Source: a virus
Virus record (IMG/VR): IMGVR_UViG_3300043775_002630
Coordinates: 78,364 to 142,363 of that record
DNA length: 64,000 nucleotides
Strand: one strand, 5' to 3'
Below, one piece after another: positions 21,515 through 54,601 of the stretch (the first letter of the stretch is position 1; each line of letters opens with the position of its first letter). The notes under the pieces were generated by a model. The model saw only the letters and a program-made list of their open reading frames with translations, had not been told where the DNA came from and searched no databases. The translations under genes were made by a program, and so were the position numbers.

Positions 21515-23023
21515 ATGTCTATCTTAAGGTCATATTTCTCAAAGAACGATACTATAATATCAAATCTTTATACCAATACTGCTCGTAACCCAGTTGCTGA
21601 ATTAAACTTTGGTGCTTCGGATTTAATTGTACCCAACTTTGGTTTTACACGTTTTTTATTTGACCTTGATTTAACTTATCTTGAAGAACAAATTGCTTCA
21701 GGTGTTATATCAACAGGTTGTACCACAGGTATGACTCACGTTTTAAATATGGTTAATACTTCATCGTTTGAAGATGACTTGATTAATACCAATATGACAA
21801 ATGGTAGAAAAAGAGCAACATCATTTGATTTAATTCTTTTTAGAATACCAAAATACTCAGGAAGTACAGGTGAACCTCAAGTATGGGATGAAGGTGTTGG
21901 GTTTGATTATAATGATTACGCATTAACTAAGAATGGTGTTAGTGGTCAATTATCTGTCATCCAACAAAACAATAACTCAGCCTTTTCAACAAGACCAACA
22001 AACTGGTATCAAAGAAGTACACTTAAGAATTGGTCAGTACCTGGTTTATATGACAATAGAAACACTTTAACAAGTTTGACGGGGTGTAACTACTCTGCGT
22101 TAACAATCGTTGACGTACAACACTTTGAATTGGGTAATGAAGATGCAAGTTTTGATATGACTAATGAAATCAACAGTATTTTAAATGGTACGTTGACAGG
22201 TGTCACAGGATGGGGAATTGCTTATGTCCCTGATATTGAGAATATTACAGGTTTAACTGAGAGTTATAGTGTTGCGTTCTTTTCAAAATACACACAAACA
22301 TTCTACCAACCATATCTTCAAACAACCTATAATGATTTGATTAAGGATGATAGAAATTTATTCTTACAAAATCAGACAAATAAGTTATACTTATATGTTT
22401 ATCAAAACGGTGATTTTGTAAACTTAGATAATTTACCAACAGTATCTATTGAGGACTCTGCAGGAGATTTAGTTGTTACAGGATTGTCAACTTGTTTGAT
22501 TACAAAGGGTATTTATGAAGTCACGGTTCCTAACGCCTTTTCAGCATACACAACACCTTGTATGTTCTATGATGTGTGGTCTAACTTAACAATTAATGGA
22601 CAACCCATTCCAAACATAACCAATGAATTTGTTTTAAGACCTTATACGTCAGGAATTCAGATAGGAACCCTATCCAAAGAACCTGAAAAATTTGGGTTTA
22701 GTTATTATGGTATTTTACAAAATGAAAAAATACTTAATACTGAAATTAGAAAAATTGGTGTAATCGCCAAAAAACTTTGGTCGTCACAGACTTTATTGAT
22801 GGACATTGATGTTTACTATAGAGTTTACGTAAAAGAAGGTACCACTGAGGTTATCGTCCAAGATTGGACTCCTGTAAATAGAACCCCTAACGAATATTAT
22901 TTCATCTTTGATATGAGAGACAAAATACCAAATGAATATTTTGTGGACATAAGGGTAAACACAAGTGGTGAGAAAGATATTTATAAAGACACATTACAAT
23001 TCCAAATAGTAAACAAAAAATGA
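21515..23023 (+). CDS. Putative virion (baseplate/tail) protein
   Basis: 502 aa, mostly beta-structure, with many Asn, Thr and Tyr and almost no long helix. The first 230 residues (with LVSxDL-like NFGASDLIVPNFGFTRFLFD and a DVQHFELGNEDASFDMTNEI segment) resemble a DNRLRE-type or carbohydrate-binding-like beta-sandwich; the rest suggests two further Ig-like domains. The stop overlaps the next gene by 4 nt. Assigned to the virion by context and composition. Confidence 0.6.
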   Translation: MSILRSYFSKNDTIISNLYTNTARNPVAELNFGASDLIVPNFGFTRFLFDLDLTYLEEQIASGVISTGCTTGMTHVLNMVNTSSFEDDLINTNMTNGRKRATSFDLILFRIPKYSGSTGEPQVWDEGVGFDYNDYALTKNGVSGQLSVIQQNNNSAFSTRPTNWYQRSTLKNWSVPGLYDNRNTLTSLTGCNYSALTIVDVQHFELGNEDASFDMTNEINSILNGTLTGVTGWGIAYVPDIENITGLTESYSVAFFSKYTQTFYQPYLQTTYNDLIKDDRNLFLQNQTNKLYLYVYQNGDFVNLDNLPTVSIEDSAGDLVVTGLSTCLITKGIYEVTVPNAFSAYTTPCMFYDVWSNLTINGQPIPNITNEFVLRPYTSGIQIGTLSKEPEKFGFSYYGILQNEKILNTEIRKIGVIAKKLWSSQTLLMDIDVYYRVYVKEGTTEVIVQDWTPVNRTPNEYYFIFDMRDKIPNEYFVDIRVNTSGEKDIYKDTLQFQIVNKK

Positions 23024-23499
23024 AAACAGTAAGACTTTCAGAAACAGAACTAACTAACCTAATAAAAAAAGTTTTAGGTGAAGATAAGGATATGAGAAGT
23101 AACAGATATATGTTCTTTTCTAATTTAGAACAAATGAAAAGACAATGTGAGCTTCTTTTGGAGCTAGACGAAGACACTATCACAGAAATTCTTAACAATG
23201 GACACGACTGGGCTGATGACCATATAACAGAATCCAAAAACAATTTAGACCAAGTTTTTGATTTTATGATGAATGAAATCAATGGTGAGGGGGAAGATAT
23301 GGAATACGACGAGTATGAATATGTTAACGAAGGTCGTAAAAAGACAGGGACTAAGTTATGTGCTCGTGGTAAAGCTGCTGCCAAATCAAAATTTGATGTT
23401 TACCCTTCAGCATACGCTAATGGATACGCGGTCCAAGTCTGTAAGGGAAAACAACCTGGACTTGACGGTAAAAAAAGATGTTCAGGAACCTACTGTTAA
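23020..23499 (+). CDS. DUF5872-like protein with L-x-E N-terminal tag
   Basis: 159 aa. The N-terminus VRLSETELTNLIKKVLGE is an amphipathic helix ending in LGE, resembling a T4-type capsid-targeting tag. The middle is acidic. The C-terminal 50 residues (GTKLCARGKAAAKSKFDVYP, AYANGYAVQVCKGKQPG, CSGTYC) form a Cys/Lys-rich domain that resembles DUF5872-like domains of large DNA viruses; a related composition occurs in the gene at 24239-24643. A DNA- or metal-binding internal virion protein is plausible. Confidence 0.6.
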   Translation: MKTVRLSETELTNLIKKVLGEDKDMRSNRYMFFSNLEQMKRQCELLLELDEDTITEILNNGHDWADDHITESKNNLDQVFDFMMNEINGEGEDMEYDEYEYVNEGRKKTGTKLCARGKAAAKSKFDVYPSAYANGYAVQVCKGKQPGLDGKKRCSGTYC

Positions 23500-23522
23500 T
23501 TTTTTTATTCAAAAACTTTCAT

Positions 23523-23530
23523 TATATTTG
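23523..23530 (+). promoter_or_regulatory. Candidate Bacteroidota-type -7 element
   Basis: TATATTTG fits TAnnTTTG and lies 18 nt before the ATG at 23549. No TTTG is found at the usual 19-20 nt upstream, so it is weaker than the other sites. Confidence 0.4.
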
Positions 23531-23548
23531 TAGTCAATAAACGAGACT

Positions 23549-23953: not shown

Positions 23954-24270
23954 AACAGTTTAAAAGTTTATTTGTATATGGTTTGATTGGATATCTATTT
24001 ATCTCATCAATAGTTATTCTACTTACGTATAACGTATTACTTTATTTTGGTAAAGGTGGTAGAAAACCTATCACTAAAACTATTGAGGAAAAACCTTATG
24101 TTTTTGATGATGAATCTAAAAAACCATTAAAAAATGATAGTAATAATACTGTCAAAATTCAAAAACAAACACCTAAAGTTATTCCGCAAGTTGTCCCACA
24201 AGTCAAAGATTCCTTTAAAGAAAGTAATGATAGTATTGTTAACCCTGTCGATTCTTTAAAGACTCCTTAA
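23950..24270 (+). CDS. Single-pass membrane protein with Pro/Lys-rich tail
   Basis: 106 aa. One membrane segment (about residues 8-32, FVYGLIGYLFISSIVILLTY), then about 70 residues rich in Lys, Pro, Asn and Val (TPKVIPQVVPQVKDS). This is the layout of an inner-membrane spanin-like or envelope-associated protein, but no outer-membrane lipoprotein partner is adjacent. It overlaps the convergent gene's 3' end by 32 nt. Confidence 0.6.
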   Translation: MKQFKSLFVYGLIGYLFISSIVILLTYNVLLYFGKGGRKPITKTIEEKPYVFDDESKKPLKNDSNNTVKIQKQTPKVIPQVVPQVKDSFKESNDSIVNPVDSLKTP

Positions 24271-24643
24271 GAACATTTAAAATAGTATTTCTAAGACTTT
24301 CATTTTTTTTAGTCTTATAGGACACCATAGTTGGTTTATTACCCTTACCAACTTTTGGGTCCTTTTTTTCCGCACGTCTTTTTTGTGCACAGGCAGCTTT
24401 TTTCTGTGCATCTGTCATTTTAGACGCTACTCCCGCCGCACGACATTTTGGATATCCTTTAGGGTCAGCATCAGGTCTACCACAAGGTGGATGACCTCCA
24501 CCTTCTTTTTTTCTACAAATATTAACCCAAGGACCTTTAGGTTGCTTAGAACCTTTTGGTTTTTTCTTAGTACCAAACCAAACCGCTAAATCTTCGTTTA
24601 ACATTTTTTCGTAATTAGAATCTCTTCCCGCTTGTAATTTCAT
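24239..24643 (-). CDS. Basic Cys-containing DUF5872-like protein
   Basis: 134 aa, very basic. It contains GPWVNICRKKEGGGHPPCGR, then YPKCRA and KKAACAQKRRAEKK, with regularly spaced Cys residues and a C-terminal helix NESLRNTILNVLKESLKN. Near its start MLNE (residues 14-17) is an L-x-E site. It resembles DUF5872-like proteins and the C-terminus of the 23020 product; nucleic-acid binding inside the head is a reasonable guess. The 3' end overlaps the plus-strand membrane protein gene. Confidence 0.55.
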   Translation of the reverse strand: MKLQAGRDSNYEKMLNEDLAVWFGTKKKPKGSKQPKGPWVNICRKKEGGGHPPCGRPDADPKGYPKCRAAGVASKMTDAQKKAACAQKRRAEKKDPKVGKGNKPTMVSYKTKKNESLRNTILNVLKESLKNRQG

Positions 24644-24945: not shown

Positions 24946-26751
24946 TTATCTCAATTCTCTCAAGTCGAATGTTCTAACACCATCAACTGTGATTCTACCA
25001 TAGAATCTGTTGTTCACCATTTTCTTAGCGTATCTTGTCATAATACCTTTGATTGGTGTGAAGTTGAATGGGTTATACATTGTTGGTGTTAATTGTAGAG
25101 GTACATACGGTGCGTAAATGTAACCTGTGTCAAGTAACGATGTTCCTTTATGTCCTAACAACACTTGGTTTGCTGGGAAGTAAGGGTCACGGTAAACTTG
25201 ATATCTACCAGCCAATGTACCAACTCTCTCAATACCCATATTGTATTGGTCTTGCTCAGGAGCCGCATTTGATACGTGGAAGTATTCCAAGTCATCAAAG
25301 ATAGCAGATACCTCAGAAGATACTACAATCCAGTTAGCTCCACCTCTTAAAGTAGATTTGTGGATTTGAGCTGAGATTTGGTTGATTGCTGTGATAAGAG
25401 TTTGGTTCCAGTCCTTTTGTGTGTAAGGAACTGCACTTGAACCTAATCTCTTCCATCCGTTGTAGTCCCAACGTAAGTTCCAAGCCGCACCTTTTCTAAG
25501 GTCTCTTAAGATTTCACGGTCGATTTCAGCCGCAACTTGCTCAGACAATAAAGCTGTTAATTCAGCTTCAGCGTCGATGTTGTGGAATGCCGCTACGTCT
25601 TGAGCCATTTCAGGTGACCATTGTGCTCTTAATTTTCTTTCTGTAACCGATACAGTCACTGACTGAAGGTCGAAAGAAACTTCACCGATTCTATCTTCAA
25701 ATTCAAGATTCTTGTAGATTCTATAAGTTGTAGAGAATGCTTGTGAAGCTGCTGACAATGAAGAGTAGAATGTTGAACCTGTGTAACCATCGATTGAGTT
25801 AGCATCTCCACAAGAGATACAAACAGGAACCTGAAGGTCAACTTCCAAGTAGATTTTACCTTCTGCGTCACATACGTTGTAATATGTACCACCGTCAGTT
25901 CTAGAGTTAGGGAACTCAAGAGTTACGTCTGAACCGTACTCAACAATACCTTTACCATATCTTTGAGTAACAACTCTGAATAAGTAGTTATTGTTTACGT
26001 TAGCAGCTGTTGTGTAGTTACCAGCCTTACCTCTAATAGTCAAGTCAGATAAGAATTCTTCAGTATCCATTGGTTGACCGTTAGGTCCGATTAATTGACC
26101 AGCACCTGCTGAAGCAAATCCTGTCATAACCAAAAGAACTTTTCTGTAGTTATCTAAACCATAACCTGAAGCAACTAACTCATCACCAACCCATACTACA
26201 GTAGAGTTACCAGCTGTGATTGACGAGAAGCTACCTTTTGAGTAGTCGTAAAGACCTGGAGGGTCAAGAGCTGGTTCGTTACCTTCGTAGAATCTATCGT
26301 AAAGGTCTTTAGTTGCGTTGTAATCATAACCACTATTTGGTTGTTGGTTAGCAGCCGCGTTAGGTGAACCATAAGGTGCCCAGTGTTCACCAAATGTTGA
26401 TGTTTCAGTTTCGTAAGACTGAATGTTAGGTACGAAGTAGAACAATTTACCGATAGGAAGGTTCATAGCTTGTACTGAAACGATGTCGTTAGCCAAAAGT
26501 TTAGAGAAAACTCTTCTTACGATTGGGAAAACAACTGTTTCAAATGAACCTGAGTCAGCAGTTGATGCAGCTTCGTTAATGAGATATGATGCTTGGTTTT
26601 CATATAACTGAGCAACGTTCTCTTTTAGGTGGCCTTTAAGACCTTCAAGGAACCCTAATTTGTCCCATTTGTTGATTGTATCTTCTTTGATAACTTTAAG
26701 GTGCTTAAGACCAATGTTACCAACAAGACCTGATTCTAATAATGCTCCCAT
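24946..26751 (-). CDS. Major capsid protein (T4 gp23-like)
   Basis: 601 aa, last gene of the head block, after the scaffold gene, as in T4. The N-terminus (GALLESGLVGNIGLKHLKVI, then ENQASYLINE) and the following VVFPIVRRVFSKLLANDIVSVQAM match the gp23 pattern. The sequence LINE at 57-60 followed by AASTADS is a prohead-protease L/I-x-E site, so residues 1-60 are probably removed on maturation, as in T4 where cleavage is at residue 65. It is followed by a strong terminator, and should be the most abundant virion protein. Confidence 0.92.
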   Translation of the reverse strand: MGALLESGLVGNIGLKHLKVIKEDTINKWDKLGFLEGLKGHLKENVAQLYENQASYLINEAASTADSGSFETVVFPIVRRVFSKLLANDIVSVQAMNLPIGKLFYFVPNIQSYETETSTFGEHWAPYGSPNAAANQQPNSGYDYNATKDLYDRFYEGNEPALDPPGLYDYSKGSFSSITAGNSTVVWVGDELVASGYGLDNYRKVLLVMTGFASAGAGQLIGPNGQPMDTEEFLSDLTIRGKAGNYTTAANVNNNYLFRVVTQRYGKGIVEYGSDVTLEFPNSRTDGGTYYNVCDAEGKIYLEVDLQVPVCISCGDANSIDGYTGSTFYSSLSAASQAFSTTYRIYKNLEFEDRIGEVSFDLQSVTVSVTERKLRAQWSPEMAQDVAAFHNIDAEAELTALLSEQVAAEIDREILRDLRKGAAWNLRWDYNGWKRLGSSAVPYTQKDWNQTLITAINQISAQIHKSTLRGGANWIVVSSEVSAIFDDLEYFHVSNAAPEQDQYNMGIERVGTLAGRYQVYRDPYFPANQVLLGHKGTSLLDTGYIYAPYVPLQLTPTMYNPFNFTPIKGIMTRYAKKMVNNRFYGRITVDGVRTFDLRELR

Positions 26752-26789: not shown

Positions 26790-28298
26790 TTACATCTTCG
26801 CCATCAAATCTTTAATTCTTAAGAATTGTGGATTTTCGTATGTCTTAGATTCAATTAGACTTGTTGAAGAGCCTGAGCTCATTTGGTTGTTAAGTTTAGT
26901 TTCAACACTTTCGTTGATACTCTTACCCTCAACTTTACTCAATTCATCTTTAACAGTCTTGTAGAGTTGTTTTGATTCTTTTAGTGATTCAACAGAATCA
27001 AATCTTCTCAAGATATTTATTTTTTCTTTCTTGGTAGTAGAATGTTCCGTGAACAATCTTGTAGCGTAAGCTAGGTTAGAATTAAAAACCGCAACTTCAT
27101 TAAGTTTTTCTCTGAAAACATTCAATGCTTTTCTATACTCTTCGTTTTTCTCTCTAAGTACATTCATTTCAGTTTCAACAGATTCATAAGTATAGTTACG
27201 ATTGTTTGTAATTCCTTTTCTTAAACCTCTACCTTCTTTTGAACCCATACCATAAGTTCTAGCAGCTTCTTTGGTTTCTTCTTTTTTCTTACGAGTTTCG
27301 AAGTGAGCATCATCTCTACGAGACTTAGTTGACTTAAGGTCTTTCTTAGCAATTTTACCGTGCTTCATACCTTCTCTTTCGTCTTCCTTGTCATCGTATC
27401 CTTGACCCTCTTTAAACTCAAATTTTGCTTTACCAGTACCCATAGTTTTAGGTCCTTCTTTCTTGTCGTCAGAGAATCCTTTTTTAGGTAATGAACTACC
27501 GTATTTAAATTTAGGATTTCCCATTCCAACGCCTTTAGGTTTAACAGTCATTTTAGCTTCCTCAAGGTTGTAACCTTCATTGTCTTCATCTTCTTCATAC
27601 ATTTCAGACATATCCATATCGTCCATTTCAGACATATCCATATCTTCTTCATCCATAACAATTTCATAGACTACTTCATCTTCTTCATCTACTTCTTCTT
27701 GTTCGTTATAAAGTGCGTCTAAAACTGCATCCAAATCAGAATCTTCAACATCCTGTTCCATCATTTCATCTTCTTCACCAATTCCGTCAAATCCGAAATA
27801 ATCTTCTTCTTCATCGTATTGTTCGTCAAGTTCTTCGTCTTCTTCTTGTTCATTCATTTTAACAAGATACTCAACGTCATCACCGCTGTCTTTGATTGAG
27901 ATTTCATCACCGTCTTTTTGAACAATGATTCCATCCTCATCAGACATACGTTTAAAGATTGTTAAGATGTCTTCTGCTGAAGCGTTAGTAAGGTCAATAG
28001 TTTCTTCGTCATCTTCAAACTCCATTTCGTCTTCGTCACCGAATTCCATTTCGTCTTCAGATTCTTCAGAATCCATATCCTCAAGGTTATCAGCTTCATC
28101 TTCCACTTCATCAGTGTCAAACTCCGCATCTAATTCAATCTCCTCATCTTCTTGCTCGTTGAGAGATTCTTTTACTAACTGACTGATTTCTTCCTTCATA
28201 GTTGAAGCAAGTATTCCTTTTGCGTTTTCGGCTATAACGTCTTCGACGTTTTTCATTTGAATTAAAGCCTCTTGAACCAAATTTTTATTTTCGGACAT
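26790..28298 (-). CDS. Prohead core/scaffold protein (gp22-like)
   Basis: 502 aa with very acidic runs in residues 40-240 (EDEEIELDAEFDTDEVEDEA and similar) and a basic, helical C-terminal third (LNEVAVFNSNLAYATRLFTE is a conserved-looking helix). Placement between protease and capsid genes and the extreme charge match the T4 gp22 scaffold, which is degraded by gp21. DVIAE and LVQE near the N-terminus resemble cleavage sites. It is nearly twice T4 gp22 in length, mostly through the acidic insert. Confidence 0.78.
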   Translation of the reverse strand: MSENKNLVQEALIQMKNVEDVIAENAKGILASTMKEEISQLVKESLNEQEDEEIELDAEFDTDEVEDEADNLEDMDSEESEDEMEFGDEDEMEFEDDEETIDLTNASAEDILTIFKRMSDEDGIIVQKDGDEISIKDSGDDVEYLVKMNEQEEDEELDEQYDEEEDYFGFDGIGEEDEMMEQDVEDSDLDAVLDALYNEQEEVDEEDEVVYEIVMDEEDMDMSEMDDMDMSEMYEEDEDNEGYNLEEAKMTVKPKGVGMGNPKFKYGSSLPKKGFSDDKKEGPKTMGTGKAKFEFKEGQGYDDKEDEREGMKHGKIAKKDLKSTKSRRDDAHFETRKKKEETKEAARTYGMGSKEGRGLRKGITNNRNYTYESVETEMNVLREKNEEYRKALNVFREKLNEVAVFNSNLAYATRLFTEHSTTKKEKINILRRFDSVESLKESKQLYKTVKDELSKVEGKSINESVETKLNNQMSSGSSTSLIESKTYENPQFLRIKDLMAKM

Positions 28299-28634: not shown

Positions 28635-29348
28635 TTATCTTGTTAAATAATCGTTTAATTTTTTCATTAAGTCAACAGACTTACCCAAAGAATCTGAGTC
28701 TTTCATCTTTCTTTCTTCTTCTAAGTTTTCTTCGTAGTTATTTCTATCTTCAGGATTACTGAATAAGTAAGCACCTGGTGTAGATGGTGAAGATACCAAG
28801 TCAAAACAAATTAATTCAAAATCGTCTTGAACTTCATTTTGTTCACCAACTTTTTTAAGAGAGCCGACACCACGAGATGAAACACCCATAGTAACACCTT
28901 GTCTCATTAGATTGGCAGCAATATCTCCTTTTGTAGATACGATACCTCTTTCGTGGAAACCTGGTGATGTCAATAATTTTAGCTTACCCATCAAAATATT
29001 ATTGTCCCACCATATATCAGTAATAATATGCGCAACTCTATCTAAATCGATAAGTGATGATTCAGGGTGATTTAATTCAGATGTTGATAAACCTTTCTTA
29101 ATTGCTGTCTTATATCTCTCAGCTTCTCTTTTTAAAATCCTTTCAGGATAAACTCTACCATTTCTATTTGGTACACCATATTTTTGTAAAACGGCGTAAA
29201 ACTCAAAAGGATTTCTATAATCAAGTTCTTTTTGTTCCCTCATTATAGCTTCATTGAGACGGTCAGTTGGGGAGATATATCCCGCATCCATTTCAATAAG
29301 AATTCCTTTTCCTGTTTGGCCTGCTCCAAGTACTGAATAATTTTTCAT
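28635..29348 (-). CDS. Prohead core protease (T4 gp21-like)
   Basis: 237 aa serine protease of the T4 gp21/herpesvirus assemblin class, which cleaves head proteins at L/I-x-E before DNA packaging. The likely catalytic His is in TSELNHPES (His94) and the Ser in GVSSRGVGS (157-158). RNGRVYPERI near 63-72 is a conserved segment. Location next to scaffold and capsid genes agrees. TATTTATT (29362-29369) lies 13 nt before the ATG. Confidence 0.88.
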   Translation of the reverse strand: MKNYSVLGAGQTGKGILIEMDAGYISPTDRLNEAIMREQKELDYRNPFEFYAVLQKYGVPNRNGRVYPERILKREAERYKTAIKKGLSTSELNHPESSLIDLDRVAHIITDIWWDNNILMGKLKLLTSPGFHERGIVSTKGDIAANLMRQGVTMGVSSRGVGSLKKVGEQNEVQDDFELICFDLVSSPSTPGAYLFSNPEDRNNYEENLEEERKMKDSDSLGKSVDLMKKLNDYLTR

Positions 29349-29907: not shown

Positions 29908-30093
29908 ATGTTAATAGTAAAAGTAGACTCAAATATTGAAAAGGCACTAAAGACTTTGAAATCCAAAGTTATTAGAACAAAACAAATGCAAAGATTAGTT
30001 GAATTGAAAGAATTTAAAAAGAAATCTGTAGTTAAGAGAAGTCAGAAAGAATCTGCAAAACACAAACAATATCTTAGGACTCTTGGTGAATAG
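29908..30093 (+). CDS. rpsU: Ribosomal protein bS21
   Basis: 61 aa, Bacteroidota-like S21: MLIVKVDSNIEKALKTLKSK (1-20) followed by a helical, very basic body with RLVELKEFKKKSVVKR and a KQYLRTLGE end. bS21 binds the small subunit near the anti-Shine-Dalgarno region. In Flavobacteriia bS21, with bS18 and bS6, is reported to sequester the 16S rRNA 3' end. A phage copy could replace the host protein. It is a lone plus-strand gene within the minus-strand head block, and its last 20 nt overlap the end of the opposite gene. Confidence 0.85.
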   Translation: MLIVKVDSNIEKALKTLKSKVIRTKQMQRLVELKEFKKKSVVKRSQKESAKHKQYLRTLGE

Positions 30094-30781
30094 AATCCTT
30101 TAATTGTTTTAATCTGATATAATTCATTAAATCAAAATTTTCAGATTTAATCTTTTCAATAGTTTCATTTAACTTAGTCTTCATATCTTTTTCAGATTCT
30201 TTTTCTGAAATGACAACTAGTCTCTCTATTGTAGATTCTTTAATTGTTTGGAATTCTTTTTCTAAATCATCTTTAGATGTTGCCATTAAATGAAAGACTT
30301 CTACTTTTGTAGATTCGTCTAATGTTTCCAAATATGATTGAACTGTTTGATTGGCAATATTGACCATAGACTTTAATGGAATTTTTACAGTTTCACTCAC
30401 GTTAGTTTTGTTCTTCATTAAAGTTTCTATGATACGTTTTTTGGACAATACTCTTTCAGATAGATTTACGTTTTTGAAATAAACTAAATTATCCAAATCT
30501 GAATATACGTTTTCAGATACCCCAACCCCATTTGGTAACTGAGTTTTGGTAACCAAATGTCTAACAATCTCAATACCTTCATTTAAGAATAACTCAGCAT
30601 CTTCTTTAGATAATCCTTGTGGTTTATAAAGGTCATCGTAGATAGAATATAATTTTGAAAATGATTTATTTTCAAGAATATTGTGTTTGAATTCTCTTAA
30701 AGTTTTTTTAAAGTCTGATTGGTTCTTGTAGGATTCTACAAGACTCTTTTCAATTGCCGATTTTATTTGTCCAAATGTCAT
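30074..30781 (-). CDS. Helical head-block protein, function unknown
   Basis: 235 aa, almost entirely helical with Lys/Glu-rich segments (SEKESEKDMKTKLNETIEKI). The N-terminus FGQIKSAIEKSLVES ends in L-V-E, resembling a capsid-targeting tag. It sits between portal and protease, where T4 has small core genes 67 and 68; it could be a core component but has no clear similarity. Confidence 0.58.
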   Translation of the reverse strand: MTFGQIKSAIEKSLVESYKNQSDFKKTLREFKHNILENKSFSKLYSIYDDLYKPQGLSKEDAELFLNEGIEIVRHLVTKTQLPNGVGVSENVYSDLDNLVYFKNVNLSERVLSKKRIIETLMKNKTNVSETVKIPLKSMVNIANQTVQSYLETLDESTKVEVFHLMATSKDDLEKEFQTIKESTIERLVVISEKESEKDMKTKLNETIEKIKSENFDLMNYIRLKQLKDSIHQES

Positions 30782-30804: not shown

Positions 30805-32667
30805 TTACGAATTCAGCAACTTATCAAGTTCTTCACCCATTTTTCCTAAACTTTGTTGTCCAACACCTAAATCTAAAAATTTGTTACCATACATATCACT
30901 CTCTAAAAGGATATTCATATCTCTATCCATTTTGGATTCTGGCGCTAACTCTGGCGCGCCAGCTTCAGGTGCCGGTGGTGGAGGAACCTCTCCACCCGCT
31001 TCTGGCGCGGTCTCAAAACCACCGCCTCCACCTGCGAATATATCTTCACCTGGAGGTGGCGTTGTAGTCTCGCCTGCGGGTTCTTGACCTGTTGCTGGTA
31101 GATTACCTTGTTTGTTACCATAAAGTTTATCAATTGTATCAAAGATACCTGTTTTAGAAATAACTGTTGGTGTATTTTTAAGCTCTTCACCCACAGCCTT
31201 TTCAAGTCTTTGTTGTAGTAGGTCAACTCTAATTTCTTCATCAGACCATTGGAATATATGTTTTTTGGCCCAAGTTGATGAGGTTGGTTGAATACCATTT
31301 CCTGGGTCAGTAACCATATCTTTATACAATAACATTTTTTCTTTCCAAATGTCAATCTTAAGAAGGTCTGCTTGTGTTGATGGGTTTGTTAATCCCAATT
31401 CAAAATTAGATATCTCTTCTTCAAAACCTAAAAGGAACAAGTGAATAATTGCAATTTTATTCATTTCTTGAACCATAGATTTTTGAATTCTATTAATGGT
31501 TCTTGCAAATCTGATATCCATCAGTGCCAAGCTTTTACCATCACCTACGGTTTCTTCAAATCCTAAAAATGCTTTTGGTATACGAAGTGCTGTAACAAGT
31601 TTCTTTTGAATATATTCAATATCTGCAATTTCAGATAAGTTCTGTGCACCAGGTAATGTGTCAATTGGACTTGGCGCTGCAGGGTCTCTTACAGGAATAA
31701 AATAATCTTGGTCAACCGCCATTTGGTTAAATCTCATATCTACGTTACCTGTTTTAGAATCAACAATTTGTTCTCTTTTAAACTTGTTGGCAACACGTTG
31801 TACGTAAGCCTCAACATCATCGTCGTTCATATTTCCGACATATACTTTGAAGACCCTACGTTCAGGGGCTCTTGAAGTACGGTATATCAACATCGCGTCC
31901 TCCGATAATAGAAGTTGTTTCCAAATTCTACGGGACTTTTCCAACATAGATGTACCATACGGCAATTTACGGTCATCACCCAATAATCTAAAGTGAGCAA
32001 TTTCCCAAGGTTGGAATTCCATATTCTTTTCTTTCCAATAGAATTTCAATCCTTTATTTTTAGTGTAATCGTTACCTATGTTTGGAGATACTGAACCATC
32101 CATAAGTCCACTTTCAACCCTTTCAACTTCAATGTTTGGTAACTGAACACAACCAACAACACCCTTTTCAGGGTCCAATCTTAGATAAACAAAATTGTCA
32201 CCATACTTACAAGTGTTTCTAGTCCACATAGGTAAGTTAGTGTTAATATCTAAGTTATTATTGAATAAATCCGCTAATACAGATTTAATCCTTTTTGATT
32301 CTGAATAAATCTGTAATACAAAACCATCTTCATTAGGTGTTGTAGATTCTTCAGCGTAAATGTCTAAGGCTGCAGAAATTTCTGGAGTATACTCCATAGA
32401 CTCATAGTCATAATAAGATGATAATCTATTTGGTTGGTAGTATACTGCTTGAGTGTATAAATTATTCTCTACCTTAGCAAATTGTCCTGCCAAGTAAGCG
32501 GTTTGTCTTGCTTGGAGTTTTTCCTTTTCATATTCGGCTTTATCGGTAGTTCTTAAAAGTTCTTTTTTATCAAACTTAAATACAGGAAAATCCTGATTCA
32601 TTAACGCGTCAGGACCTAAGGCTCTACCTAATCTTTGCCAAACTGTAAATTGCTTATTTTCTGCCAT
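30805..32667 (-). CDS. Portal protein (T4 gp20-like)
   Basis: 620 aa. The N-terminal two thirds show the gp20 pattern, including YYDYESMEYTPEISAALDIY, FYWKEKNMEFQPWEIAHFRL, a KLPYGTSMLEKSRRIWKQLL helix and the ADIEYIQKKLVTALRIPKAF segment. A Gly/Pro/Ala-rich linker (GEDIFAGGGGGFETAPEAGG) and a helical tail of about 40 residues are additional. It forms the dodecameric DNA entry ring. It lies directly downstream of the terminase gene as in T4-like order. Confidence 0.9.
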   Translation of the reverse strand: MAENKQFTVWQRLGRALGPDALMNQDFPVFKFDKKELLRTTDKAEYEKEKLQARQTAYLAGQFAKVENNLYTQAVYYQPNRLSSYYDYESMEYTPEISAALDIYAEESTTPNEDGFVLQIYSESKRIKSVLADLFNNNLDINTNLPMWTRNTCKYGDNFVYLRLDPEKGVVGCVQLPNIEVERVESGLMDGSVSPNIGNDYTKNKGLKFYWKEKNMEFQPWEIAHFRLLGDDRKLPYGTSMLEKSRRIWKQLLLSEDAMLIYRTSRAPERRVFKVYVGNMNDDDVEAYVQRVANKFKREQIVDSKTGNVDMRFNQMAVDQDYFIPVRDPAAPSPIDTLPGAQNLSEIADIEYIQKKLVTALRIPKAFLGFEETVGDGKSLALMDIRFARTINRIQKSMVQEMNKIAIIHLFLLGFEEEISNFELGLTNPSTQADLLKIDIWKEKMLLYKDMVTDPGNGIQPTSSTWAKKHIFQWSDEEIRVDLLQQRLEKAVGEELKNTPTVISKTGIFDTIDKLYGNKQGNLPATGQEPAGETTTPPPGEDIFAGGGGGFETAPEAGGEVPPPPAPEAGAPELAPESKMDRDMNILLESDMYGNKFLDLGVGQQSLGKMGEELDKLLNS

Positions 32668-32697
32668 ACTCTATAAAATTATTCAAACTAGTCTGAA

Positions 32698-32705
32698 TAT
32701 AAATA
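32698..32705 (-). promoter_or_regulatory. TATTTATA upstream motif for portal gene
   Basis: TATTTATA on the minus strand, 30 nt before the portal ATG. It abuts the 3' end of the terminase gene. Confidence 0.42.
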
Positions 32706-34472
32706 CTATCGAGAACCAAACAGCCATTTATATTTCTCATAATCATTTTTAGAGGGTTCATAATTCCTACTATGTTGTTGTTGATTCGGAAATTGTGGTA
32801 TTGACGGATTAAAATATTGTGAACTATCTTTATGTTCATTTACAGTTGTGGACCAAGAATCAATCATTGCTTTAGTGTGATTAACCACCTTAGTCAATGA
32901 AGGGAACGCCGCTTCAGCAGCATACAACGCCATTGAAATTGACATAATACAATCATCGTGATGTCCTCTTTGGTGGTCAGGTCTACCATTTATGTATACA
33001 AATGTTCCCATTTCACCTAATAATCTACTTGACCTGACTTTAAAGTCGTGTCTAATTGCCTCCTCAAATGATGCAATGATTTGAACTCTTTTTGAATTAA
33101 AATTAATACCAGGTATTTTTTCATTTTGTTTAGGGTCATATTTCCATTTGTTGGTTAAGTCAACACCATCATAATAGAAATTTTTATACCCTAATTCTTG
33201 TAATCTTCTTGATGTCGCAACACCCATACCCCCCGTTAAGTCAACAATACATAAAGCATTATACATTGTTCCCCACTTGTACGCAATCTCTGCTAATACA
33301 TCGGGTGGTATTTTACCAACAAATTCTAAAACCTGTTCTCTTGAGTCAAAATCAATGATTTCAATACACGAGAAGTCTTCTGAATCTCCCCTTGATACAT
33401 CAACACCCATCACATATTTGTGATTATTTTCAGGTTCTTTCCATATCCAAAGTTGGTTACCCATTAATTTGGCTGTTGGTTCTTTTACATCATTCTCAGA
33501 AATTTTTTGGGTTAATAAAGAATCAAATACGTTATCACCTGAACCCAAGAAATTACATTCCAATTCCTGAGCAACTTTTCGTTTGTCGTACTTGAGTTTT
33601 TTAACCATACTCTCAAACCAACTTGAACAAGGTTTATATCCTTGTTCCATATATGTTTGAATTAGTTCAATATCTCTGTCGTATGGATTTTCATCGGGTA
33701 ATTGTCTTACAACGTCTTTGGGGTATTCTTCCTTATTTAACAAATAATGAACAATATCCTCACATTTAACCATATACAAATCTTTGGTATAACGAGGGTC
33801 ACGGAACCAATACATTGGCGTGATTTTGAAGTCGTTCATACCTCTTTGTGCTTGGTCGTAAATTTCGTAGTAAATCGGGTCGTATCCGTTAGGTGTTGAT
33901 ATTACAACAACTTTACCACCCGTAGATAGTGAGGCCATACAAGCCGCCCAGAAATCACTGTCAGCTTCAATAAACGCCGCCTCGTCAAATATTAATATCG
34001 TGGGGGTATAACCACGTAAGGCATCTTTAGATGTGGCAACCGCCTTAACTTCACATCCATTAGTTAATTTAAAGTGTCTGGCAGAGTTTTTTTCACCTGA
34101 GAACCCAATACCAACCCAGTTCGGCCATTGTTCCGTAAAAGCTCTAATTTTATTAGCAAATTCTACAGATGTTTCTAATTTATTGGCAATAATAAGAATC
34201 TTTTCAGGTTTTTCTTTTCGAGCAAACGCTAATCGTTTACTTGCCCAACCTGCAGTAACCGTAGATACACCCGCCTGACGATACTTCAATGCAATGTTTT
34301 CATTATACATTTCGTAATCGTTAACAAGTGTTACTTGGTCTTTAAATAATTCTAAGGGAACATACTTTGATACTGTGTTATCGTATGTTTGTAGATATGT
34401 TTTAAGAGCATAAGGAGTGCTTTTCATACACTTCTTATACTCTATTAAAACTTGTTCTTTTGTTAAACTCAT
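32706..34472 (-). CDS. Terminase large subunit (T4 gp17-like)
   Basis: 588 aa packaging motor. The ATPase has a terminase-type Walker A, KYRQAGVST (63-71), and Walker B ILIFDEAAF (159-167), with VVISTPNGYD as motif III. The RNase H-like nuclease carries MGVDVSRGDSEDF (Asp358, Asp363), Asp411 in CIVDLTGGMG, and HHDDCIMS (about 505-512). Length is close to T4 gp17 (610 aa). It starts 1 nt overlapping the upstream gene's stop. The small terminase subunit is not obvious. Confidence 0.93.
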   Translation of the reverse strand: MSLTKEQVLIEYKKCMKSTPYALKTYLQTYDNTVSKYVPLELFKDQVTLVNDYEMYNENIALKYRQAGVSTVTAGWASKRLAFARKEKPEKILIIANKLETSVEFANKIRAFTEQWPNWVGIGFSGEKNSARHFKLTNGCEVKAVATSKDALRGYTPTILIFDEAAFIEADSDFWAACMASLSTGGKVVVISTPNGYDPIYYEIYDQAQRGMNDFKITPMYWFRDPRYTKDLYMVKCEDIVHYLLNKEEYPKDVVRQLPDENPYDRDIELIQTYMEQGYKPCSSWFESMVKKLKYDKRKVAQELECNFLGSGDNVFDSLLTQKISENDVKEPTAKLMGNQLWIWKEPENNHKYVMGVDVSRGDSEDFSCIEIIDFDSREQVLEFVGKIPPDVLAEIAYKWGTMYNALCIVDLTGGMGVATSRRLQELGYKNFYYDGVDLTNKWKYDPKQNEKIPGINFNSKRVQIIASFEEAIRHDFKVRSSRLLGEMGTFVYINGRPDHQRGHHDDCIMSISMALYAAEAAFPSLTKVVNHTKAMIDSWSTTVNEHKDSSQYFNPSIPQFPNQQQHSRNYEPSKNDYEKYKWLFGSR

Positions 34473-39896: not shown

Positions 39897-40649
39897 TTAG
39901 TCGATATTTTTTACTTCAACGGAAAGTTCTTTATCCATTTGATTGTTGATAGTATCATACAATTTTTCAATAAGACCTGACCTTCTTAGATATTTGAAAA
40001 CCAAATTCTCATACGAGTATTCACCTTCTTTCTCCAAACCTGAAGTTCTATATTCTTTCAATTTATCCTTAAGAGCCAAAATTTTAGATTCAGTTTTTTC
40101 AACACCATCCTTTTTAATTTGGAGAATCAAATTTTGAAGTTTCTGTTTCCAAGAAAGAATTTTTGTTTCCAATAAATCTCTATCTATTTTTGAATTTTCT
40201 CTTTCGGGAACATTTAACCATTTATCATCTGAAATTGAATAAACACCTGAAGAATAATGAGCTTCTTTGGCATCTTGGGCGTACAACTCAACCTCGTAAC
40301 CAAAAATTACGATGTCGTGTTTTTCATTAAAAAGTTGTTTTTTAAGGTTAAACAATTCTTTGTGTAAATCTTCTTGTTTTTTGAATTGTGAGAAATCAAT
40401 TACAACGTGTAAATCAAAGTCTGAAAATTTTGACCAGTTATAATTTGCCAACGAACCTGTTAATATAATATCTTCAACTTTAATATCATCACCAAGACTA
40501 TCGATAAAAGCATCCGCAATTTTTAATAAAGCCCTTTTTACTTTTGACTTCATTTTTGCATCTTTAGCTTCCTCAGGATTTTCCCAAACTTTAGGGTTTA
40601 AGGTTTCTCTAAGTGAAAAACTATCAATAATGTCGTTAACTTTCTCCAT
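39897..40649 (-). CDS. Polymerase-beta-type nucleotidyltransferase
   Basis: 250 aa. VEDIILTGSLANYNWSKFSD (about 57-76) continues FDLHVVIDF: this is the GS-x-x-x-x-W-S-x-x-SD-x-D active-site signature of the nucleotidyltransferase superfamily, with a third Asp in VVIDFSQ. It might modify tRNA, protein or a small molecule. The N-terminus contains SLRE (L-x-E). It begins the minus-strand head block, an unusual place for such an enzyme, and could be a packaged effector. TATTTATT is 4 nt before the ATG. Confidence 0.75.
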   Translation of the reverse strand: MEKVNDIIDSFSLRETLNPKVWENPEEAKDAKMKSKVKRALLKIADAFIDSLGDDIKVEDIILTGSLANYNWSKFSDFDLHVVIDFSQFKKQEDLHKELFNLKKQLFNEKHDIVIFGYEVELYAQDAKEAHYSSGVYSISDDKWLNVPERENSKIDRDLLETKILSWKQKLQNLILQIKKDGVEKTESKILALKDKLKEYRTSGLEKEGEYSYENLVFKYLRRSGLIEKLYDTINNQMDKELSVEVKNID

Positions 40650-43910: not shown

Positions 43911-44537
43911 ATGCGTGATAGAATTAAACAAATTTTACAAGAACAAATCGACCTTAAAAAAATAGGTATTGAAGTTGAACCTTCAGATAGAGTTGTACGT
44001 AGTATTTGTGATGCTAAGAAATTTTGTGATGCTCAAGGACCTATAACATTTGGTCAATTAAGAACTATTATCGAATCGGCAATAAAGGAACGATTGGGTA
44101 AACATATTGGCGAGGGTGGGTTTAAAGCAACATTAAGATTATTACCTTGGTTTTTACCACAATTAGCGGTTGCGGGATTTGGTGCTGCAATTATGAGAGC
44201 TGCAAATAAAATTATTAAACCTTCATTAACTGAAACCCAAAATTACAAGACTTGGTGGGGTAAAACAATTTTAAGACTTATGGATGCAGTTGAGGGTGAC
44301 CTTCCTCTTTCAGACCCATTTAGTAAAATATTTTTTATATCAGATGGTTTAATGAGCTTAATGGACGATGAGAGTAAAGTTAAATTTGCTCGTCATATTG
44401 CAGAAATTGCTAACAGAATGCCAGACGATGAACCAGTGCCAGAGTTTTTTGTAGAAAACGAATTAAGAAATTGGGTTAATAAAAGATTTTTATTAGACCC
44501 ACCACTTGAACCAAAGGGAATAAAAAAAGAGGACTAA
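43911..44537 (+). CDS. Hypothetical protein with short L-x-E tag and hydrophobic core
   Basis: 208 aa. The N-terminus MRDRIKQILQEQ ends in L-Q-E, consistent with a prohead protease site. Residues about 78-105 (LLPWFLPQLAVAGFGAAIMR) are a hydrophobic stretch that could be a membrane hairpin; the remainder is helical. It has TATTTATA at its start and a terminator at its end, so it is a stand-alone late-type gene. Possibly an internal head or ejected protein. Confidence 0.58.
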   Translation: MRDRIKQILQEQIDLKKIGIEVEPSDRVVRSICDAKKFCDAQGPITFGQLRTIIESAIKERLGKHIGEGGFKATLRLLPWFLPQLAVAGFGAAIMRAANKIIKPSLTETQNYKTWWGKTILRLMDAVEGDLPLSDPFSKIFFISDGLMSLMDDESKVKFARHIAEIANRMPDDEPVPEFFVENELRNWVNKRFLLDPPLEPKGIKKED

Positions 44538-50334: not shown

Positions 50335-51657
50335 ATGAAACGAGTTTTAAGAGAAGAAATAAATTCAATGAAATCATTAATGAAAATTAATGAAGACTTT
50401 GTTACTGTTTCTTCAGTTGGATTTGATAACATCACAACAGATAATGATTCAACAAAGTCTGATAAAATAAATCGTGCGCTTCTTAAAGATATTAGTAGAG
50501 CAGCTAAAAAGGCTGGTGTAAAAGTAACTATCACAACTGCTAATTCAGGTCACAATATGAGAACTAAATCCGGCACCTTAAGTAGACATAATACTAATCA
50601 AGCCGTCGATATTGCGATGATTGATGGTGTTGGTTCAGGTGGAGCGACTAATGCAACTAATGGTAACCCTAAATTTAAATCAGGTGGAGATAAATTAGTC
50701 GCCGCTCTTGAAAGTATGGGTTATACGAGAAATGCTGAAGGACCCCAAAACCCAAAGGCAGTTTTTTGGCAAACTAATTCAGGTGGTAATCATTTTAATC
50801 ACGTACACGTTTCAAACACAACTGGCGAATCATCTAAAGAAAGTGACGATAATTTTGAAATTACACCTGAAAGAGAGGAAGAATTGAAAAAAATTGCACA
50901 GGGTGTTTCCAATCAGGAGAAAAAAACTGGTGATTTTGAAGCAATATTTAAAATGGCTGACACACTTAAATCTACTCTTAATAGAGCATCGGTAAATGCA
51001 GGTATAAAAGAGCAGTTTGATGATAGTGAAAGAGTTTCTGGTGTAGGTTTGGTTAAATCTAAACATCAGGGAAAAATAGTTCCTAACACACTTATAAAGA
51101 AAAACTGTGATGATTCATTAGTAATCAGGTTTAGGATGAATAATAGTACATACTATGTAGAATACTGTAATTTAGAAAAAACTTATAAATCTACAGGTGA
51201 AAATGTATACGTTGGCGATAAATTAGGTGAATCCTCAGATACTGTTTATTTAAGTTATTTTAACTATAAAGGTGACAAAATTAATAAAGACATTATTAGC
51301 TCACCTAAAACTGAGCCTGAAGAAATAGACGATGAAAAACCTACAGATTCTGTAAAATCAAAAGGATTAAAAATATTTCAAGATGATTCTGGAAGTACAG
51401 GTGAAACGTTTGCAGACTCTTTTTATAACCTATTTCAAAATTTAAACCCTTTAACCAGTAGATACGCTATAGACTCAGAAACAGGCAAACCTGTTAAAGT
51501 ACATCAGGGTGGTCTTGCAACAACACGTAGTAAAGATTCTAAACCAAAAATGGATTATTTAAAAAGAATAGGATACGCATCAACTAAATCAGGTGCAAAA
51601 ACCAGAGGTAAAAGTCTTAAAGAAGAAATGGAAATAATGAAAAAATTAATGAAATAA
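50335..51657 (+). CDS. M15-type peptidoglycan peptidase with capsid-tag-like ends
   Basis: 440 aa. The first 20 residues MKRVLREEINSMKSLMKINE end in I-N-E, and the last 14 (LKEEMEIMKKLMK) repeat a similar helix. The catalytic domain (about 45-162) has LSRHNTNQAVDIAM (His85, Asp92) and HFNHVHVS (His156, His158), the zinc and catalytic residues of M15 D-Ala-D-Ala or L-Ala-D-Glu peptidases. Residues about 220-310 may be a small LysM/SH3-like or M23-like beta domain (VYVGDKLGESSDTVYLSYFN). Likely a virion enzyme acting on peptidoglycan during DNA entry. Confidence 0.75.
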   Translation: MKRVLREEINSMKSLMKINEDFVTVSSVGFDNITTDNDSTKSDKINRALLKDISRAAKKAGVKVTITTANSGHNMRTKSGTLSRHNTNQAVDIAMIDGVGSGGATNATNGNPKFKSGGDKLVAALESMGYTRNAEGPQNPKAVFWQTNSGGNHFNHVHVSNTTGESSKESDDNFEITPEREEELKKIAQGVSNQEKKTGDFEAIFKMADTLKSTLNRASVNAGIKEQFDDSERVSGVGLVKSKHQGKIVPNTLIKKNCDDSLVIRFRMNNSTYYVEYCNLEKTYKSTGENVYVGDKLGESSDTVYLSYFNYKGDKINKDIISSPKTEPEEIDDEKPTDSVKSKGLKIFQDDSGSTGETFADSFYNLFQNLNPLTSRYAIDSETGKPVKVHQGGLATTRSKDSKPKMDYLKRIGYASTKSGAKTRGKSLKEEMEIMKKLMK

Positions 51658-52425: not shown

Positions 52426-52426
52426 T

Positions 52427-52740: not shown

Positions 52741-53333
52741 TATTGTAAGAATTTTAAAACTTTCTCTTTTACTCCTGATTGTTTAATACCCTCGTATTGT
52801 TGTGGTGTATGTACGAAATTAGTTAAACCAGGTTTTTCGTCAAGACCATCTTTATGTGTAAAATGATTTGATAAAAAATCTACAGACATATCCAAATCAT
52901 CAATTGACACCCAATGAGTAATTTCAGGATGAGTTTCTAAATAATGTTGGATTTCAATTGAACGTTCCAATTCTAAATCGGCACGGAATCGTAGTATGTT
53001 CCATTTTTCAGGTGCGATATCTTCAGTTCTTGGTGTTGTTGCAATTGGAGCTTTTAGGATACCTTGAGATAGGTAGTATTCACCAAGTTCCTCCAACGTG
53101 GCGTGAAATCTCCAATCTGAAGATACAACTATTTCAGCACCAGTCTCTTCTAAAATAGAATTTAGGACTTTAATTGCTTTATCATCAAAATCGTCAAATC
53201 GATATTGAATAGGAATTTCTCTATTGGTCATAGACATTTTTCTACCACCCCATTTTTTTTGTTTCTTCATCCTACCACCCCAATTGTTTGCAAGACAAAT
53301 TACACCATCGTTATCTAGGAATATTACTTTCAT
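52740..53333 (-). CDS. HAD-domain protein of the RNA-repair (Swiss Army Knife-like) type
   Basis: 197 aa from ATG 53333; a longer in-frame start is discarded because the promoter lies there. Motif I is VIFLDNDGVIC (D7, D9), motif II VVSSDWRFHATLEELG, and the acidic WVSIDDLDM motif IV. The SSDWR segment and C-terminal organisation match the HAD_SAK group, linked in comparative genomics to RNA repair. The cREC-domain gene further upstream has a similar association, and tRNA clusters are nearby. Confidence 0.72.
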   Translation of the reverse strand: MKVIFLDNDGVICLANNWGGRMKKQKKWGGRKMSMTNREIPIQYRFDDFDDKAIKVLNSILEETGAEIVVSSDWRFHATLEELGEYYLSQGILKAPIATTPRTEDIAPEKWNILRFRADLELERSIEIQHYLETHPEITHWVSIDDLDMSVDFLSNHFTHKDGLDEKPGLTNFVHTPQQYEGIKQSGVKEKVLKFLQ

Positions 53334-53337
53334 AGAA

Positions 53338-53345
53338 CAAAGATA
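53338..53345 (-). promoter_or_regulatory. Candidate -7 element with no leader room
   Basis: TATCTTTG on the minus strand, only TTCT between it and the ATG at 53333. A matching -33 TTTG is not found. If active, it yields a leaderless transcript. Confidence 0.5.
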
Positions 53346-53365
53346 ATACAATCTTGTAGTAATTC

Positions 53366-54601
53366 CTATTTTTTCTTGTAAATAATTTCTTTGTGGATTT
53401 TGAATGGTCCGTATTTTTTCTCCATCAATAAACGGTGAAGTTCCCAATTGATAATGGATTCGTTTGTTTGTCCATCATCTTTCGCCATATCATAAAGTTT
53501 GGCAATTTTTCTAATCATTTTATCGGCAATCATATTAAACTTTTTGATTTCGTATTTAAAAAATTTGATTGGGTTGTTTTCAAATCTAAGAACAAATTTT
53601 TGAAAGTTTTCTTTGATTTTATCAAGTTCCTCAGAATCCCCTAAAGATTGTCCAAGCATTGATGCTAACATAGATAATAGAGGGTCTGAACCCATTGGTC
53701 CATCTACGTATCTGTTAAACTTTTCAAGTTTTCTATTTGATAAGTTTATAAAGAATAAACGTAAAACTTTTTCAACTTTTTCATCATCAGTCATTGTGGT
53801 AGGGTCCTCTTCCATAATTTCAGATATAAAAAAATCAACTCTTTCCATATTATCTTTAATCCCTGAGACTAAATCTTCATACGTGAAATTTTTAATTTCC
53901 TGTAATTTTTGGAATGTCTTATCCTTTTTCAAAAAGTCTAAAAACTGTGATTTTGTAATATTTTTCGTTCTTATGTTAGATGCGACTTCACTAGGTCTAA
54001 CCAAATTTTCAGCAACGGTAGTAAAATATAAAAAGTGTATAAATTTTTCGTCAAGTACATCAATCCTAAATGGTGGCATATCACCGATAGCATTATATTC
54101 AGCATCGTGCCCAATTAAACCCTTTCGACTAACTTGTTTATCGTATTTGTGTTTTAATTCGTGAGCAATTGACCCGATATATTCATCTCTATCAGATTCA
54201 AACTCTTGGGCTAATTGTTGCGGTTCCCATTCAGAGTTTACAATATAAGTTAAAGTAAATGTTGCTTTTGATGATGGTTTAATAGTTTTTAACTTAATGT
54301 CTCTATCAAATCTAAAAGTTTGTGACATACCCATAGAGGCGATTTTCGGGTCCTCTTTGAATTCATCAATCTCGTTAACCTCAACGATGAGTTTATAACT
54401 ATCAAGATATATTTTTTGTTTATAACCTAATGTTATATCAATGTCACCATAAAATTCGTATTCATCTTTTTTTTGACGAATACTTTTTAAGTCGTTTAAA
54501 ATCATTCCATAAACTTCTTCGGCGGCTTCCAAAATAGATTCAGGAACCCCTAAAGCTTCATTAATTAAGTTGTACTGACTTTCGGTGATAATATACTTCA
54601 T
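53366..54601 (-). CDS. Putative zincin metalloprotease with capsid-tag-like N-terminus
   Basis: 411 aa. IAHELKHKYD (145-154) contains HExxH (H147, E148, H151), a zincin signature; a third ligand could be in the following 50 residues. The N-terminus KYIITESQYNLINEALG contains L-I-N-E followed by Ala, the same tetrapeptide as at the major capsid cleavage site. The C-terminal half is helical (FENNPIKFFKYEIKKFNMIA). It may be packed in the head and act on host proteins after injection. Confidence 0.68.
   Translation of the reverse strand: MKYIITESQYNLINEALGVPESILEAAEEVYGMILNDLKSIRQKKDEYEFYGDIDITLGYKQKIYLDSYKLIVEVNEIDEFKEDPKIASMGMSQTFRFDRDIKLKTIKPSSKATFTLTYIVNSEWEPQQLAQEFESDRDEYIGSIAHELKHKYDKQVSRKGLIGHDAEYNAIGDMPPFRIDVLDEKFIHFLYFTTVAENLVRPSEVASNIRTKNITKSQFLDFLKKDKTFQKLQEIKNFTYEDLVSGIKDNMERVDFFISEIMEEDPTTMTDDEKVEKVLRLFFINLSNRKLEKFNRYVDGPMGSDPLLSMLASMLGQSLGDSEELDKIKENFQKFVLRFENNPIKFFKYEIKKFNMIADKMIRKIAKLYDMAKDDGQTNESIINWELHRLLMEKKYGPFKIHKEIIYKKK

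Follow-up and report, generated by a model that had tools for sequence, protein, structure and literature searches.

Interchangeable terminal tags ending at prohead-protease-like sites point to capsid targeting of many proteins in T4-like phages

Our study of a 64,000-nucleotide stretch of viral DNA (the window), positions 78364-142363 of the 142,363-base IMG/VR virus record IMGVR_UViG_3300043775_002630, revealed short terminal tags that end in [LI]-x-E and are shared by proteins with otherwise unrelated bodies, in this phage and in many relatives known chiefly from environmental sequences. Sequence comparison strongly supports modular terminal tags that stop at a site like that of a prohead protease: unrelated bodies share tags, conservation stops at the glutamate, homologous bodies swap tags at this residue, the same site is found in capsid and core proteins, and the commonest tag is absent from a set of crass-like phages. 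We think it probable that the segments are capsid-targeting propeptides working like the capsid targeting sequence (CTS) of phage T4 and removed by a family S77 protease. A preliminary description of the window had proposed a capsid-targeting sorting system from segments ending in L/I-x-E, and all of these segments lie where it had located them. Its modular tag ending at a protease-like site holds at the level of sequence; its inclusion of a nucleotidyltransferase among the cargo does not.

The window encodes a Gp23 capsid protein (PF07068, 7.2e-73) and an S77-family prohead protease (PF03420, 1.7e-24; phrog_207, 1.8e-43), both identified by profile searches of its proteins, and we therefore regard the phage as T4-like. 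Matches to the capsid protein came from 2,484 phage records, every one below 60% identity, the top matches being an uncultured phage, Microcystis phage Mel-JY01 and Flavobacterium phages immuto; a megablast search of the head region against phage records gave zero matches. With the capsid protein as query, we drew 80 close relatives from viral contigs. Gene starts were taken from a simple gene caller and proteins of less than 60 residues (aa) were omitted from most counts; the phage's own record has 122 called proteins of at least 60 aa. The pooled set draws on the own record, eight related records and phage immuto and comprises 474 proteins, with each body family represented once. The tag scans of viral contigs covered 120 stretches each, and their totals are thus lower bounds and their fractions samples.

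The tag that we call class A has the consensus MKK[IV][IV][RK]LTESDLxx[IL][VI][KR][KR]V[IL]xE. A regular expression blind to the end of the tag retrieved 14 proteins of 10 body families from the own record, the eight related ones and immuto, and all 14 tags end in [LI]xE. The viral scan fixed only residues 1-12 and left residues 13 onwards free. Among the at least 138 distinct proteins that it gave, Glu22 is present in 129 and isoleucine or leucine at residue 20 in 123, residue 21 varies, and I, V or L dominate at residues 15, 16, 19 and 20. The [LI]xE at 20-22 occurs in 123/138 proteins, and any other site within residues 11-36 in at most 7. The information content is 3.9 bits at residue 22, 1.3 at residue 23 and less than 0.8 beyond. 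The same site is present in 78 of 91 proteins from loci new to the free-end scan. Mutants of the T4 CTS are reported to assign packaging to residues 4 and 7 and processing to residues 8 and 10 (PMC9026906), which places the targeting residues six and three positions before the glutamate (-6 and -3). The corresponding positions of class A hold V or I in 137/138 proteins (residue 16) and V, I or L in 117/138 (residue 19). The pattern including its end has at least 157 matches in the 120 viral stretches, 144 of them at the first methionine and two at C-termini (L174 and L228). A tblastn search with the 23-aa tag, a very short query, found no match in phages and plasmids, and a literature text search for the letters of the tag listed matches that all look unrelated.

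At least four further tag families have the same organization to differing degrees. Class B (MK[IYF][IL]ITExQ) was found in at least 157 proteins; class C (LxEEIxRIxxLM) has the L-x-E built into its pattern and is C-terminal in 10 of 33 proteins; class D (RILxLHExATK..YL) is followed by [LI]xE within 8 residues of ATK in 67/89; and an immuto type (F[DN]LKKFLVENKLTxNS[KR]), in at least 119 proteins, has an [LI]xE starting at motif residue 18 or 19 in about 81% of them. BLAST clustering of the bodies gave, as lower bounds, 162 clusters for class A, 72 for B, 12 for C, 17 for D and 64 for the immuto type; classes A-D jointly make at least 499 proteins in 247 clusters, and 81 cluster representatives have a mean identity of 5% when aligned. 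Both the occurrence of tags at C-termini and the existence of several tag families go beyond the preliminary description. Homologous bodies with different tag classes were found in 13 of the 247 clusters, some of which, such as a coiled-coil one, may be spurious. In a family that looks DHH-like by eye, six members have a class B tag and one a class A tag, and the alignment of the bodies starts one residue past the glutamate. Four loci (L218, L295, L197 and L365) hold arrays of 4-8 class B proteins, mostly of about 100 aa and many without an [LI]xE end.

Orthologue comparisons support each of the tags that the preliminary description had placed at 23020, 24643, 30781, 43911, 50335 and 54601 (Table 1). 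In a 32-row alignment of the 23020 family, the glutamate is present in all 32 sequences at each of three sites, with L, I, M or V at P3 and a variable P2. The third site lies just ahead of a basic C-terminal domain (phrog_27331, residues 110-152). An AlphaFold2 model has a helix at residues 8-24 (the tag), a weaker linker and a confident helical body, and residues 92-110, which hold the third site, are disordered (pLDDT <50); as the mean pLDDT is 65, only the layout of the model is meaningful. The 24643 product has [LI]xE at residues 5-30 in 52/53 relatives, in a cluster that joins two protein kinds, and its C-terminal segment also fits the T4-register search described below. In the 43911 family, an [LI]xE precedes the shared body in 6/7 sequences including our own (L717 has none), and the homologous bodies have class B, class C or short tags. 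Two homologues (L713 and L715) have the body fused behind an upstream part with the junction LNE/E (slashes mark predicted cuts), which suggests a polyprotein cargo that would be cut in the head. The adjoining gene (window 41868-43868, plus strand), conserved among relatives, looks by eye like a Clp-type AAA+ ATPase.

Two tagged proteins of the window resemble peptidases. The one at 50335, which had been described as an M15 peptidase, has the H...D...HxH motif, with H85, D92, H156 and H158 invariant in its family, but neither it nor five aligned homologues matched an M15 profile; M23 profiles match 2/6 members. A C-terminal helix similar to its class C-type tag was seen by eye in 6/7 homologues (L693-L699), with [LI]xE directly before it in 3 of those 6; this class C example departs from the -6/-3 hydrophobic register. 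The zincin-like family was aligned in 10 rows, omitting a near-duplicate (L704) and a weak G056 match (L709, L711), and with L712 being the L710 frame. The tags of its members are of class B, resemble class A or are very short; Glu15 is kept in 10/10 and [LI] at P3 in 9/10, and the body opens with [AER][LV]GVP right after the site. Fifteen columns are invariant, among them Glu15 and the HExxH residues. Searches of solved structures gave no convincing match for either family. The cargo of the window would consist of the 23020, 24643, 43911, M15-like 50335 and zincin-like 54601 proteins.

Three other segments were rejected as tags. The SLRE of the nucleotidyltransferase, named as cargo in the preliminary description, keeps its P1 glutamate in only 2/6 of the orthologues listed, and KILNE in an 81-aa protein (40667-40912, minus strand) and LLKE in a peptidase (44554-45384, minus strand) lie inside conserved stretches. 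There are further candidates in the record beyond the window, at record positions 76059-76439, 74559-75275 and 32066-32725. The first begins MKL...LK.L[LI]xE/[IVA]AS, with the glutamate and the L/I kept in 8/8 sequences and a variable P2.

Similar sites occur in the head module itself. The LINE-A maturation site predicted for the capsid protein is well kept, with [YFHW]LINE in 71/77 relatives; the pattern misses the other six. The acidic protein that we presume to be the scaffold from T4 gene order, and for which Pfam and PHROG searches gave no match, has [LI]xE at residues 5-30 in 60/70 relatives. By eye, its segment MKEEISQLVKESLNE/Q shares the register of the class A tag, as does IKSAIEKSLVE/S of the probable core protein, which has [LI]xE at residues 5-30 in 32/37 relatives and an asparagine at P1 in the G011 orthologue. 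A further head-module protein (35766..36563) keeps KL[TDN]E/[SG]Q in the six orthologues listed, with L, V or F at P3 of its second site.

Table 1. Features of the window (window coordinates; slashes mark predicted cuts)
Feature	Position	Strand	Remarks
Class A tagged protein	23020..23499	+	Predicted sites after Glu8, Glu21 and Glu104
Class A tag	23020..23082	+	MKTVRLSETELTNLIKKVLGE; fits class A consensus
Small basic protein	24239..24643	-	N-terminal MLNE/D (Glu17); C-terminal segment ILNVLKE/S
Major capsid protein Gp23	24946..26751	-	PF07068; predicted maturation site LINE60/A
Acidic protein, scaffold position	26790..28298	-	IAE24/N and MKEEISQLVKESLNE48/Q; 29% Asp+Glu
Prohead protease S77, T4 gp21 type	28635..29348	-	PF03420, phrog_207; proposed processing enzyme
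Probable core protein	30074..30781	-	SLVE16/S; adjoins portal-position gene
Presumed portal (gp20) position	30805..32667	-	From T4 gene order
Presumed terminase large subunit (gp17) position	32706..34472	-	From T4 gene order
Head-module protein	35766..36563	-	Tag-like internal segment, NLQE25/SEITTLFKKFGLSE39/Q
Nucleotidyltransferase	39897..40649	-	PF01909, 2.5e-5; SLRE not supported as tag
Tagged protein	43911..44537	+	MRDRIKQILQE/Q
Tagged peptidase-like protein	50335..51657	+	N-terminal MKRVLREEINSMKSLMKINE/D; H...D...HxH motif, M15-like by motif only
C-terminal class C-type tag	51613..51654	+	SLKE/EMEIMKKLMK; within 50335 protein
Tagged HExxH (zincin-like) protein	53366..54601	-	Class B tag MKYIITESQYNLINE15/A

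Elsewhere in the window, a run of genes at 1257-12900 (plus strand) reads by eye as sugar-nucleotide, glycosyltransferase and methyltransferase genes, and long Pro-Thr repeats (PTPTPTNT) mark three large proteins, which may be fibres or adhesins, encoded at 38158-39831 (minus strand), 57054-58631 and 59228-61774 (both plus strand).

An abundance of [LI]xE near N-termini might simply follow from helix propensity and from a composition that is AT-rich and rich in Glu, Ile and Leu, and the own record taken alone leaves some room for this. The motif is found in the first 25 residues of 38/122 proteins (28.2±4.2 in shuffled sequences, P 0.012) and in the first 35 residues of 47 (39.5±4.6, P 0.069); the enrichment over shuffled proteins raised as a check by the preliminary description is thus seen over the shorter span, and for [LI]NE (9 proteins vs 2.2±1.4 in the first 25 residues; 11 vs 3.2±1.7 in the first 35, 0/1000 shuffles), and is weaker for the plain motif over 35 residues. 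Two control motifs, [LI]xD and EN[LI], match expectation, and two others are raised in the first 35 residues (Ex[LI] in 53 proteins vs 39.5, P 0.005; [LI]xxE at 59 sites vs 45.9, P 0.019), so that helix-like periodicity accounts for part of the plain signal. Taken by itself, this genome shows a modest enrichment, [LI]NE excepted. Ten sets were compared, namely the own record, the eight related ones and immuto, and in each of them [LI]xE is more frequent in the first 30 residues than in shuffled sequences (z 1.1-3.6). In the pooled set it is found in 186/474 proteins vs 149.2±9.1 (0/400 shuffles), and Ex[LI] (171 vs 149.4±8.9) and [VMF]xE (119 vs 104.2±8.5) are raised too, while [LI]xD (99 vs 102.8) and [LI]xK (160 vs 168.5) are not. 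The crude test is not significant even in T4 (first 100 kb, 43/140 vs 38.6±4.7), so its failure would not refute the idea of a tag.

More specific is the T4 register, hydrophobic-x-x-hydrophobic-[LI]-x-E, which is in excess at pooled N-termini (46/474 vs 19.2±4.3 in shuffled sequences) and C-termini (31/474 vs 17.7±4.0) and shows no excess in mid-protein (13 vs 14.7±3.6). At N-termini it is found in 21/194 proteins of immuto (6.5±2.7 expected), in 10/140 of the first 100 kb of T4 (4.6±2.1), in 2/85 of crAss001 (3.0±1.6) and, in single related records, from 4 vs 4.0 (G003) to 8 vs 2.5 (G006). Pooled variants with aspartate (10 vs 13.2) or a shifted glutamate (17 vs 20.3 and 11 vs 18.5) are at or below expectation; the lysine variant gave 29 vs 23.0±4.7 by shuffles and 30 sites vs 16.6 by the body rate. 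These contrasts, together with families whose glutamate is invariant and P2 variable, make composition scarcely credible as a general explanation. It is excluded for the tag families and is the likely explanation for single unsupported proteins, such as the nucleotidyltransferase. Pairs of proteins with similar starts and dissimilar bodies are numerous in G005 (40 vs 1 in a control stretch) and immuto (12 vs 1, nine of the 12 tag-like by eye), number 1 vs 1 in G002 and are absent from G003 and G004.

Could the shared N-termini instead reflect a mobile 5' gene cassette, a module for recombination or translation start, with the peptide playing no part in sorting? Homologous genes do bear different tags, and T4 internal-protein genes are exchanged as cassettes. 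Yet selection acts on the peptide. In a 142-protein class A set (the 138 plus four proteins from other loci), third codon positions are 58% identical vs 72% for the residues of the tag, nearly all synonymous codons occur, and the following residues 25-60 are 7% identical. Moreover, several tag families with no relation to each other stop at similar protease-like sites, and the module is found at C-termini as well; we regard such a cassette as very unlikely. Less improbable, but still unlikely in our view, is that the phage protease does cleave the tags and that these have another purpose, such as keeping enzymes inactive, tethering them to membrane or core while the head is assembled, or timing lysis enzymes, with no virion delivery. 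Like membrane-binding helices, that of class A is amphipathic and basic, and family searches, which took 81 of 236 body-cluster representatives, matched few of them to profiles, among which are lysozyme, peptidoglycan hydrolase, peptidoglycan-binding and OmpA-like proteins. However, acetyltransferases, PAP2 and DeoC are also matched, the bodies include the DHH-like family and many have no match at all, and the core and scaffold-position proteins share the tag's register. In addition, T4 gp21 is described as acting during prohead maturation (PMC9026906), and a cut after [LI]xE would therefore imply presence in the prohead.

Under capsid targeting, the short amphipathic helix at the N-terminus, or sometimes the C-terminus, would dock on the prohead core, probably by a hydrophobic face of the same kind as that of a helix found in the core protein and in the scaffold-position protein. 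The shell would then close around core and cargo, and the S77 protease would cut after the glutamate of [LI]-x-E, so that the cargo is released and the core taken apart. On this view, tagged proteins would be docked, packaged, cleaved and carried into the next host, packaging in the head being the best inference and injection a further step. We incline, more cautiously, towards a broader proposition: that T4-like phages, those of Bacteroidota above all, may use a general virion protein-import code, in which several unrelated and interchangeable end tags, short helices bounded by head-protease sites, mimic a scaffold helix and load many different proteins per genome from either terminus, the same sites also cutting fused cargo.

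The distribution of the tags among viruses bears on these proposals. Class A was found in 9/18 records picked by gp23 (16 matches in 1.15 Mb), of which 16/18 have an S77 gene, and in 0/18 crass-like records (1.70 Mb; 18 of 63 loci, those on records of at least 60 kb); its reversed pattern is in none of either. We took 45 tag-bearing records of at least 60 kb from 80 rows of each of two listings: S77 was found in 26/45 and Gp23 over the cut-off in 25/45, and S77 in 17/23 of those of at least 120 kb. Of the 19 without S77, 18 also lack a match to the terminase-position protein of the window and one has a terminase; a tail sheath match was found in 4/12 of those tested. One of them, G041, matches 66 proteins of the own record and its ends flank the missing head module, and G037, of the same lineage, matches 37; the absence of S77 is therefore missing sequence in G041 and probably in G037. 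In 257 Gb of bacterial genomes, the class A pattern occurs in 33 stretches, six of which read as N-terminal tags. A Prochlorococcus-labelled single-cell contig (QCKH01000009), perhaps phage, has two class A tags (L255 and L257), hinting that the tag may not be confined to Bacteroidota phages.

Several of our results weigh against capsid targeting by these tags. S77 is missing from 19/45 tag-bearing records, and two of these (G023 and G028) match 13 and 7 proteins of the own record. The crass-like control is confounded by kinship, because at least 6/16 class A matches belong to the 23020 family and crass-like phages are distant. Class B is loose, as only some 40% of its 157 proteins have [LI]xE at residue 13 or 14, and the shares of class D and the immuto type given above are incomplete. 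The own record taken alone is weak in the T4 register (7/122 vs 4.1±1.9, not significant), so about half of its hits could be chance, and has 1 pair of similar N-termini vs 2 in the control stretch; pairs being dense in G005 and immuto, the window is a diluted sample of a denser phenomenon. T4 C-termini have no register excess (3/140 vs 4.6), and local scores of class A-D tags against the T4 IPIII propeptide are no higher than those of shuffled tags. Finally, the several cargo bodies that are endolysins or peptidoglycan-binding proteins could act at lysis instead.

If capsid targeting is correct, the virion cargo of uncultured phages could be read from sequence, predicting which phage proteins of no assigned role enter the cell with the DNA, among which first-minute takeover and counter-defence proteins would be expected. 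Hundreds of protein clusters, most of those scanned without a profile match, bear a few readable tags, which would also be natural sets for studying core-cargo recognition and for loading chosen proteins into phage heads. The culturable relative Flavobacterium phage immuto has tag sets of its own, with tagged genes that start at positions 1803, 25061, 103806, 111675, 117631 and 118632 of record NC_055915, making the idea directly testable; judged by titles, the literature matches listed for this phage include no proteomics. We know of no description of these tags. A literature search on capsid targeting in phage metagenomes, with subscription papers mostly outside its scope, found none, the related titles being work on T4, giant phages and P1. 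In T4, a handful of internal proteins are packaged by the CTS.

Three known systems offer comparisons. In P1, the capsid targeting sequence of DarB directs a reporter protein into the capsid, so that here too a sequence of a packaged protein targets the capsid; the likeness is one of description, and a single signal is described (PMC9024508). In the giant phages SPN3US and phiKZ, a protease related to gp21 removes propeptides from packaged head proteins, cutting behind a Glu motif; again likened by description, these propeptides differ in being mostly far longer, three of them of 124-127 residues (PMC5694885, PMC9026906). The closest parallel is T4, whose internal proteins IPI, IPII, IPIII and Alt carry a CTS cut by gp21, an N-terminal propeptide of 10-19 residues that ends in [LI]-x-E on differing proteins, Alt being also processed at its C-terminus (PMC9026906). 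The tags described here share with it the short propeptide running to [LI]-x-E, the unrelated bodies, an S77 protease in the genome, and the register of hydrophobic residues at -6 and -3 and processing residues at -2 and 0; similarity to the CTS itself is not among the shared features. They differ in being of about 8-32 residues, in forming at least five families that are exchangeable and spread over hundreds of BLAST body clusters, in often having a second L-x-E before the helix, and in being repeatedly C-terminal. Compared with T4, what is new in these sequences is thus a wider and more modular set of tags of the known capsid-targeting kind.

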